Shown: one piece after another, positions 2,874 through 25,692 of the stretch | How the letters are laid out: every line of letters starts with the position of its first letter | Position numbering within the stretch: position 1 is the first letter of the stretch | Source: Candidatus Micrarchaeota archaeon CG1_02_55_22 | Lineage (GTDB): Archaea; Micrarchaeota; Micrarchaeia; Norongarragalinales; UBA97 | Length of the DNA: 40,741 nucleotides | Assembly: GCA_001871595.1 (NCBI GenBank) | Contig: MNVH01000038.1 | Span: 1-40,741, forward strand | Reading direction: 5' to 3' | The notes under the pieces: model-generated | The model's database searches: none | What the model saw: only the letters and a program-made list of their open reading frames with translations | What the model was told of the DNA's origin: nothing | Position numbers and translations under genes: made by a program

Positions 2874-4288
2874 GCTTTTGCCTCCTTTCGGTGCTTGCGC
2901 CCGTACTTCTCGAGGTGTTCGGGCTTGACGCGCTTGAGCTCCGTTTCAGGCACGCTTGCGAGCAACTCCCAGCCCAAGTCGAGCGATTGCTCGATAGTGC
3001 GGTTCTCGTACTTGCCTTGCTGTACAAAGCGCGACTCGAACTCGTTGGCGAACGCAAGGAACTTCTTGTCCTTGTCCGAAAGCGCCTCTTCGCCGACGAC
3101 TGCAACGAGGTTTCGCAAGTCGCGGCCTTCAGCGTACGAAGCGTACAACTGCGACGAGACGCCCGAGTGGTCTTCCCGCGTTCTGCCGTCCCCGATGCCC
3201 AAGTTCATCAAACGCGATAGCGAGGGGAGAACGTCGATTGGCGGGTAGATGTTCTTGCGGTGCAGCTCGCGCGAGAGAACGATTTGTCCCTCGGTGATGT
3301 ATCCGGTCAAGTCGGGTATGGGGTGGGTGATGTCGTCGTCCGGCATAGAAAGAATGGGCAACTGCGTAACTGTTCCTTTCTTTCCGTGGATGCGTCCGGC
3401 GCGCTCGTAAATGTTCGCCAAGTCCGTATACATGTAACCCGGGTAACCACGGCGTCCGGGCACTTCCTGCCTCGCCGCGGCGACCTCGCGCAGAGAGTCC
3501 GCGTAGTTCGTCATGTCCGTTAGAATAACGAGTACCTGCATGTCCTTCTCATAGGCCAAATACTCCGCGGCGGTCAGCGCAAGGCGCGGGGTGACGAGCC
3601 GTTCGATTGAAGGGTCGTTGGCGAGATTCAAGAACAACACTGCGCGTTCAAGCGCGCCGGTCCTCTCAAAGTCTTGCATGAAGAACGATGCTTCCGCGTG
3701 AGTGATACCCATTGCGGCGAAGACGACGACGAAGTCCTCCTTGCCAGAGTGTTTGCCGCCCGTGCTTCCGCCGCCCACCACTGCTGCTTGGCGCGCAATC
3801 TGTACGGCGAGCTCGTTGTGAGGCAAACCACTGCCCGAAAAGATGGGGAGTTTTTGTCCGCGAACAAGCGTGTTAGTGACGTCAATTGTTGATATCCCTG
3901 TTTGGATGAAGTCGTGGGGCTCGGCGCGCGCCACCGGGTTAATAGCGCTACCGTTGACGTCAAGCTTGTCCTCGGCGATAATCGCAGTACCCTTGTCTAT
4001 GGGGTCTCCAGCGCCGTTGAACACGCGTCCGAGCATGTCTTCACTCACCGGCAGTTTCAGCGTCTCGCCGGTGAAGCGCACGCTCGTCTTCTTAGTGTCA
4101 AGGCCGCTCGTGTCGCCGAACACTTGTATTGCGGCGAGGCCGCGGCTCGACTCGAGGACTTGGCCTTTCTTCTTCTCGCCGCTGGGCATCACGATCTCGA
4201 CGAGCTCGTTGTAGGCCGCGTTTGGCACGTCTTCAACAAAGACTATTGGGCCGAATATTTCGCGGACGGTCTGGAATTCCTTCATCAT
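2870..4288 (-). CDS. atpB: A-type ATP synthase subunit B
   Basis: Full-length homology by eye: [58 protein letters not shown]. Confidence 0.97.
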
Positions 4289-23478: not shown

Positions 23479-24990
23479 ATGACTGAAGCCTTGCCGCTCA
23501 CCACGATTGGCGTAGTGGTCCTGCTAGCATTCGGCATCGGCGTCATACTCAAGCGTTTGGGACAGAACTCGGTGCTCGGATACATCTTCGCCGGAATCCT
23601 GCTTGGGCCGCTCGGCTTCGCCTTCCTTGAACCAGGCTCCGGCCTCGCCTACGCCTTCGGGGAAATCGGTCTCTTCGTACTCCTGTTTTACTTGGGAATC
23701 GAGCTCTCCCTCAAGAAATTCCTTTCCACGGGCGCAACCGCAACCGTGCTCGCATTCGTCGACATGCTTGCCTTGACCGGCGGCGGGACGCTGCTCATGC
23801 TCGCCCTCGGTTACAGCACGCTCTTTTCCTTGACCGTAGGCATCATGCTCTTCTGCACCAGCACCGCGGTGGTCGCCAAGTTCATCTTCGACAAGAAGCT
23901 CAACGAGAACCCGGGCGCACTCCTCGCGCTCGCCATACTCATAATGCAGGACTTCCTCGCCTTGCTGCTGCTCATCTTCCTTTCCGGGGTGTCCGCGTCC
24001 GGAAGCGCGTGGTCCATCGGATTAAGCGCGGTCGTCTTCGTCGTCGCCGCCTTCACCGTAGTCCGCCAGCTCTCGGTGCGCGTCGAGGCGTGGCTCAAGA
24101 ACAACGGCTTCGGCCACTCCGAAACCACGCTCTATGCACTAGGCATCGGCCTGTTTGCCGCCATGGTGGGCGGAATATTCGGCCTCTCCGCCGGCCTCGG
24201 CGCCTACTTCGCCGGCTTCGCGCTATCCGAGACGAGCGCGGGCAACCGCATCAAGACCGACCTCGGCTTCCTCCGCGAGTTCTTCCTGCTGTTCTTTTTC
24301 GTCGGCTTCGGCACCCTGCTGTTCTACAACCCCGCAACCGGACTTGCAGCATTGCCCGGCATTGACAGCCTCGCCATACTAGTCGGCCTCGTGGCGGTGC
24401 TCGTCGCCGTAATCTACTTGGCCAACTTCGCCGTTTTCGGGTTCATCGGGCGCAAAATGGGCTTGAGCAACGAGAACGCCTCGCTCGGCGCGCTCCTCCT
24501 GACGCCGATAGGCGAGTTCGCGGTCATCGTCGCAACCGCCGTGGCCGCCGTCCTGCCCGCCCAAGAATCACAGCTAATACTCTCCGTGGCCTTCCTACTC
24601 ATACTCGCCTCGGTGCTCTCGTTCCAGCCCGCTTACTCATTGCGCGAACACCATGAGCGCTTCATGGCCCGCCTGCCATTCAAGCGCGCCGAAACCCAGA
24701 GCGAAATCGTGCCACACTCGCCCGACTCGCTGCGCAACGCGAAAGGCCTTGCATTAAACGTATTCATTATCGTCTGCCTCATCGCCGTAGCGTTCTTCAT
24801 CTACGACCAAGGTCCCACATTCAACGTGCCCATACCGTACAGCCGTGTGGTAACCGCAGGCGTCGCCCTCATCCTCTTCTCAATCTATCCCGTCACGCGA
24901 GCCGCGAAATACTTCCGCCGCCTCGTCAACCAAAAGCAGTTCCGCGCAGCGGCAACAAGCCCGGCGCACAAACGCCGCAAACGCAAATGA
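23479..24990 (+). CDS. Cation:proton antiporter (CPA2/KefB-like), 503 aa
   Basis: IGLFVLLFYLGIELSLKKFLSTG, CTSTAVVAKFIFDKKL, AILIMQDFLALLLL. Confidence 0.93.
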   Translation: MTEALPLTTIGVVVLLAFGIGVILKRLGQNSVLGYIFAGILLGPLGFAFLEPGSGLAYAFGEIGLFVLLFYLGIELSLKKFLSTGATATVLAFVDMLALTGGGTLLMLALGYSTLFSLTVGIMLFCTSTAVVAKFIFDKKLNENPGALLALAILIMQDFLALLLLIFLSGVSASGSAWSIGLSAVVFVVAAFTVVRQLSVRVEAWLKNNGFGHSETTLYALGIGLFAAMVGGIFGLSAGLGAYFAGFALSETSAGNRIKTDLGFLREFFLLFFFVGFGTLLFYNPATGLAALPGIDSLAILVGLVAVLVAVIYLANFAVFGFIGRKMGLSNENASLGALLLTPIGEFAVIVATAVAAVLPAQESQLILSVAFLLILASVLSFQPAYSLREHHERFMARLPFKRAETQSEIVPHSPDSLRNAKGLALNVFIIVCLIAVAFFIYDQGPTFNVPIPYSRVVTAGVALILFSIYPVTRAAKYFRRLVNQKQFRAAATSPAHKRRKRK

Positions 24991-25027
24991 CGACGTTTTA
25001 TTAACCCTTTTAGACATCAATTTGATA

Positions 25028-25077
25028 GTGATGACAACGAACAACCTCTGATTAGTGATGAGGTTGATAGCGTCTGA
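25028..25077 (+). ncRNA. C/D box sRNA (putative 2'-O-methylation guide)
   Basis: Box C GTGATGA 25028-25034, guide CAACGAACAACCT, box D' CTGA 25048-25051, spacer TTA, box C' GTGATGA 25055-25061, guide GGTTGATAGCGT, box D CTGA 25074-25077. Confidence 0.88.
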
Positions 25078-25104
25078 TTTACGTTCCCAACGAGGTGGGT
25101 TGAT

Positions 25105-25692
25105 TTGAACAAATTGTTTTTTGCGGCCTTGCTTGCAGGCGTGCTTCTGTTCGGGTGCATCGGTTCTGCAACGGATGCAAACACGACAAACGATTCAGGT
25201 GAACTAATGAACAAAATCAACGTAAGCGAGATAGACAAGAAAGTAGCTACCGGCAGCACCGTTAGAGTCGACTACGTCGGCACACTCGAGAACGGCACCG
25301 TGTTTGACACTTCAATCGAAGCCGAAGCCAAGAAAGCCGGATTGCCACAGCGGCCCGCCTATGAGCCGCTCGAGTTCAAGGTCGGCGCAGGACAAATGAT
25401 TCCGGGCTTTGAAAAGGGCGTGATGGGAATGAAAGTCAACCAGACCAAGACGATAACCCTATTGCCGGAAGACGGCTACGGTGAGCCCTCTGACGAAATG
25501 GTGATAAGCGTCCCAAAAGTGACGCTCGAGGAATCAAACATCACTCTAGAAGTCGGCACGTCCGTATATACCTCGACTGGCGCGGCAGGCGTGATAAGGG
25601 AAGTCGGTGCGGAGAACGTGACGATAGACTTCAACCACCCCCTCGCCGGAAAGACACTCGTCTTCCGCGTCACAGTGCGCGACATCCAGTAA
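25105..25692 (+). CDS. FKBP-type peptidyl-prolyl isomerase, predicted lipoprotein (TTG start)
   Basis: Signal/lipobox LLAGVLLFGC; VRVDYVGTLENGTVFDTS, GAGQMIPGFEKGVMGMKVNQTKTITLLPEDGYG. Confidence 0.93.
   Translation: MNKLFFAALLAGVLLFGCIGSATDANTTNDSGELMNKINVSEIDKKVATGSTVRVDYVGTLENGTVFDTSIEAEAKKAGLPQRPAYEPLEFKVGAGQMIPGFEKGVMGMKVNQTKTITLLPEDGYGEPSDEMVISVPKVTLEESNITLEVGTSVYTSTGAAGVIREVGAENVTIDFNHPLAGKTLVFRVTVRDIQ

Follow-up and report, generated by a model that had tools for sequence, protein, structure and literature searches.

Archaeal box C/D sRNAs are recognised by a C box (RUGAUGA), a D box (CUGA), internal C' and D' boxes, and two guides, each about 10-13 nt long. The double-guide sRNA sR10 of Nanoarchaeum equitans offers the closest comparison for the RNA described here. 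Its D' guide is predicted to target U2552 of the 23S rRNA, a site assigned by prediction to C/D guides in five archaea, N. equitans among them, and its partner site is the C2606 equivalent (PMC4644070). In Pyrobaculum, most rRNA guides are dual and hit sites less than 100 nt from each other (PMC7994747). The same nucleotide, U2552, is served by the protein-only Um2552 methyltransferases RlmE and RlmR (PMC12123411), whereas its predicted modification here would be RNA-guided. Little has been documented on C/D guide RNAs of Micrarchaeota, and our literature search returned no paper joining Micrarchaeota with a box sRNA. The present locus is a conserved example from this group, with two predicted targets in the active centre of the ribosome.

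Within the window (the whole 40,741-nt stretch of micrarchaeal DNA that was analysed), positions 25028-25077 of the plus strand read GTGATGA-CAACGAACAACCT-CTGA-TTA-GTGATGA-GGTTGATAGCGT-CTGA. The C box (25028-25034) is followed by a D' guide of 13 nt, CAACGAACAACCT (25035-25047), the D' box (25048-25051), a D'-C' linker or K-loop of 3 nt (25052-25054), the C' box (25055-25061), a D guide of 12 nt, GGTTGATAGCGT (25062-25073), and the D box (25074-25077). All four boxes are perfect, and both guide lengths lie within the range of the class. Re-reading the window sequence reproduced the series of boxes, their spacings and the 3-nt D'/C' spacer exactly as the first-pass annotation had given them. 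No Rfam family attained its gathering score at 25028-25077. The boxes, the 12-13 nt guides, the 3-nt linker and the N+5 rule are shared with sR10 and other archaeal double-guide C/D sRNAs, and we consider with high confidence that 25028-25077 encodes a putative RNA of this kind.

Homologous sRNAs were found in 15 genomes including its own, 14 of them in one order and the last (G127) in the same class; within the order, only 14 of 30 members have a detectable copy. Conservation in relatives, one of the checks proposed at first reading, was borne out: both guide cores are kept in the 14 other micrarchaeal genomes, and the C box agrees with at least six of seven consensus positions in all 15 homologues. 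The D' guide is identical at N2-N8 in 15 of 15 homologues and at N9 in 14 of 15, the D guide is identical at N2-N9 in all 15, and N1 varies in both. A free N1 beside a fixed N2 to N8 or N9 is the pattern expected if selection acts on the paired stretch alone. We would like to note that this invariance was partly imposed by the search patterns that retrieved the homologues, so that its weight rests on the parts that no pattern forced. A search of the 30 order members for boxes only, with no guide required, returned 17 loci in 13 genomes, and five of these loci (in its own genome, G005, G010, G020 and G025) share the D' core GAACAACC and the D core TGATAGCG. When the D guide, C' box and D box were searched for in 303 genomes, ten genomes matched, and all ten carry AACAACC upstream, which the pattern did not require. 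With D-guide positions N1, N4 and N6 left free, 12 genomes matched, all with G4 and T6. In a collection of 85,462 species, 11 of 18 pattern matches were archaeal (ten titled Micrarchaeota, one 'uncultured archaeon'), and the other seven were bacterial and lacked C and D' boxes.

The description of the motif as canonical holds for the window copy and does not extend to all the relatives, in which the D'-C' linker ranges from 3 to 81 nt, a point of difference from double-guide sRNAs such as sR10, and several C' boxes are degenerate. The homologue of genome G006 (contig C63, locus L110, about 4154-4249) lies inside an insertion of about 96 nt in a 23S gene, with long complementary arms on both flanks, and is thus a guide embedded in the gene of its own predicted target RNA. 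Similar to C/D guides borne in introns (the tRNA-Trp intron, sR50), it sits within an RNA gene; unlike them, its host is a 23S insertion rather than a tRNA intron, and the window copy is intergenic. The assignment of the G006 sRNA is less certain because LSU matches in that genome fall on several contigs (C77, C63, C29 and C66; loci L091, L110, L113 and L115), possibly through contamination or several LSU copies. Separately, a second C/D sRNA family with a common D' guide core, GTCCCAGT, was seen in the order (L080, L081, L082, L087), as were more C/D sRNAs that have in common a D guide resembling TGACGGACGGA or TGACAGGCGG (L076, L078, L083, L085, L088).

To place the predicted targets, LSU positions were fixed by conserved motifs, and E. 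coli rrlB served to verify the numbering. The D' guide pairs with its own LSU at GGGUUGUUC in the A-loop (2548-2556), which puts N5 at U2552 by the N+5 rule in E. coli numbering. The D guide pairs with CGCUAUCGGCU on the strand of the peptidyl transferase centre (PTC; 2501-2511), with N5 at U2504, 48 nt upstream of U2552. The search of the rRNA for guide complements proposed in the first-pass annotation thus gave each guide a consistent 23S target, and the predicted methylated base is a U for both, as had been anticipated. The further suggestion that the targets might be complementary rRNA strands does not hold, as the A-loop and PTC spans are not complementary. A scan of the 16S rRNA gave no better match, and matches to the antisense strand of the LSU were dropped because that strand is not rRNA. 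Taken in a single genome, the guide-LSU scores are modest: in 14-18% of trials a shuffled guide scored as high at some point of the LSU. The observed score was attained at the A-loop by 250 of 20,000 D' shuffles and within 100 nt of U2552 by 47 of 4000 D shuffles, or about 1% in either case. In all the relatives that were compared, the guides match the rRNA at these same positions, and GGGUUGUUC (A-loop) and CGCUAUCGG (PTC) co-occur in 18 LSU loci of the order.

The assignment is based on the boxes, their spacing, the guide conservation, the base-pairing potential, and the genes for fibrillarin (PF01269, E=7e-82) and a Nop-domain protein (PF01798, E=2.5e-58) encoded in the genome. On these grounds, and with homologues carrying both cores in 14 other genomes, the C/D box sRNA reading of the first pass is upheld. 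We regard it as highly probable that this micrarchaeal locus encodes a box C/D sRNA of the archaeal double-guide type, its D' guide directing 2'-O-methylation to U2552 and its D guide to U2504. The following course is inferred, from transcription through formation of the particle to both methylations and any part in folding. L7Ae, Nop5 and fibrillarin would assemble on the transcribed sRNA at its C/D and C'/D' kink motifs. Pairing of the D' guide with the 23S A-loop would then direct methylation of U2552, and pairing of the D guide with PTC strand 2501-2511 that of U2504. As the two sites are 48 nt apart, a single particle could serve both. During assembly it could in this way modify the A-site side of the catalytic centre and perhaps also assist its folding. 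While the kind of sRNA is already known, and like sR10 this RNA has U2552 among two predicted domain V targets, its second target, U2504, provisionally appears unusual. We found no literature precedent for archaeal U2504 methylation; since the supplementary target tables of earlier surveys, along with one Pyrobaculum survey, fell outside this search, the novelty of this site is provisional. Both predictions, Um2552 and Um2504, are directly testable in any carrier.

The second guide is the part of this assignment most open to another reading, namely that the particle is real and its D' guide addresses U2552, with the D guide acting elsewhere (on a tRNA or another RNA) or only aiding rRNA folding. 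The duplex of the D guide with the LSU contains three G-U pairs, leaves N1 unpaired and continues beyond N8 only via G-U pairs, and orphan guides are common in archaea, making up 28% of those in Pyrobaculum (PMC7994747). A tRNA scan, also proposed at first reading, yielded no match for the D' guide; the D guide matched one pre-tRNA stretch with a score of 9.2, equal to its LSU score, and this match reaches into a probable intron or trailer, which speaks against it as the true target. Also against a target elsewhere, N2-N8 of the D guide are fully complementary to the PTC strand in all order members with a recovered LSU, at a site only 48 nt from that of the D' guide. The D guide varies at N10, with T or C facing G2509, and at N12, with G or A facing U2511, and these changes leave the pairing mostly intact. 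We therefore consider a separate role for the D guide unlikely, and U2504 the probable target.

The motif lies in a 114-nt gap between a gene for a Na+/H+ exchanger-family antiporter (23479-24990, plus strand; Pfam PF00999) and a TTG-started gene for an FKBP-type peptidyl-prolyl isomerase, a probable lipoprotein (25105-25692, plus strand; Pfam PF00254). A TATA-like TTTTATTAA at 24996-25004 (plus strand), read from the sequence some 27 nt ahead of the 5' end of the RNA, suggests that the sRNA may have its own promoter. The only open reading frame of at least 60 aa across the motif is an antisense one of 80 aa (25017-25259, minus strand). The coordinates agree with the earlier placement of the RNA 3' end 27 nt before the FKBP start, so the RNA does not overlap the FKBP coding sequence, whose TTG at 25105 is preceded by a Shine-Dalgarno-like GAGGTGG at 25092-25098. 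Given this proximity, the motif could be imagined as an L7Ae-bound kink-turn element in the FKBP 5' leader that regulates FKBP translation, in keeping with the translational regulation by L7Ae proposed for archaea (PMC5539422). The mutual complementarity of the guides noted in the first-pass annotation would also suit such an element: in its own genome they can form a hairpin of 7 bp (CAACCTC/GAGGTTG). This complementarity is real, and its full 7-bp extent is peculiar to that genome. A conserved guide hairpin was accordingly rejected as a candidate, all seven pairs being present there only and one to six of the seven elsewhere.

Neighbouring genes likewise argue against regulation of FKBP. The genomic contexts of the 15 sRNAs are varied, no FKBP match was found near any of the 14 other homologues tested, and no C/D motifs were found upstream of FKBP homologues in relatives. 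Antiporter homologues lie directly upstream of the sRNA on the same strand in G010, G012, G018 and G025, with a weaker antiporter match so placed in G007. The link to FKBP drawn at first reading thus falls away: the FKBP gene is an incidental neighbour, and the recurrent one, where there is any, is the upstream antiporter. As the adjacency is not conserved, a cis-regulatory role is unlikely; furthermore, conservation covers the guide cores and not the boxes alone, and one homologue (G006) is located inside a 23S gene. Altogether, we hold a leader element of FKBP to be very improbable in comparison with a guide RNA.

The window contains a single instance of the strict double C/D pattern, and a looser C-D'-C' pattern with the D box optional occurs once in the whole 1,192,637-base genome. 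When 60 first-order Markov shuffles of the window were scanned with a score, none produced a match at the reporting threshold, and the reversed-pattern control gave zero occurrences in the whole genome. Words as short as TGATGA and CTGA are bound to be met now and then in a scan of many windows. That they fell into this arrangement by chance is hardly credible given these controls, and is in practice refuted by homologues that keep both guides in 14 other genomes.

Returning to the double-guide sRNA, the PTC strand that its D guide is predicted to pair with is itself altered. The PTC bases 2503 and 2505 are usually treated as near-invariant. A PTC pattern matched 80 of 303 genomes, and our statements on substitutions cover these 80. 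All matched order members have AUCGCUAUCGG on this strand; of the remaining matched micrarchaeal genomes nearly all have AUCGCUGUCGG, and E. coli has CUCGAUGUCGG. Relative to E. coli, nearly all matched micrarchaeal genomes have A to C at 2503 (G288 is one matched genome that keeps A2503), and this order has, in addition, G to A at 2505. In each of the 15 sRNAs the D guide places a G against 2503; against 2505 it places a U. LSU and sRNA were both recovered from 12 order members, all of which have C2503 and A2505, and from G127, which has C2503 but G2505 and would form a wobble with the D guide; in G016 and G021 the LSU stretch was not recovered, and their pairings assume the sequence of the order. 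The predicted pairing of the D guide thus fits the altered PTC sequence, and the data are compatible with the proposal that U2504 is methylated within a PTC altered by nature.

A broader proposal would be that an order whose PTC is altered at the near-invariant C2503 and A2505, together with G2448, uses a C/D sRNA to methylate U2504 between the two substitutions, along with U2552, and that guided methylation co-evolved with, and may compensate for, the changed PTC. We offer this tentatively, as a plausible idea to which we would give slightly less than an even chance. In vitro, at least one substitution is tolerated at each of positions 2503 and 2505 of E. coli (PMC7049736). Our literature search found no report of these PTC substitutions, whose novelty is provisional. 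The order-wide change is a natural experiment on the variability of the active site and on whether ribose methylation accompanies it. Order-wide LSU changes relative to E. coli were also observed to include A2499 and G2448 (own genome, G000:C56, L001/L090; loci L092-L111).

The 23S gene of the genome itself (contig C56, minus strand; L090) was found to carry two insertions. One, of about 500 nt near E. coli position 1923-1930, contains an ORF whose translation resembles a LAGLIDADG endonuclease (KYYLLGVADSEGCF), and the second, of about 390 nt, follows GAACGTC near 2584. Rfam reported no intron family for these insertions; LSU genes of Micrarchaeota are known to contain group I introns (PMC6125680).
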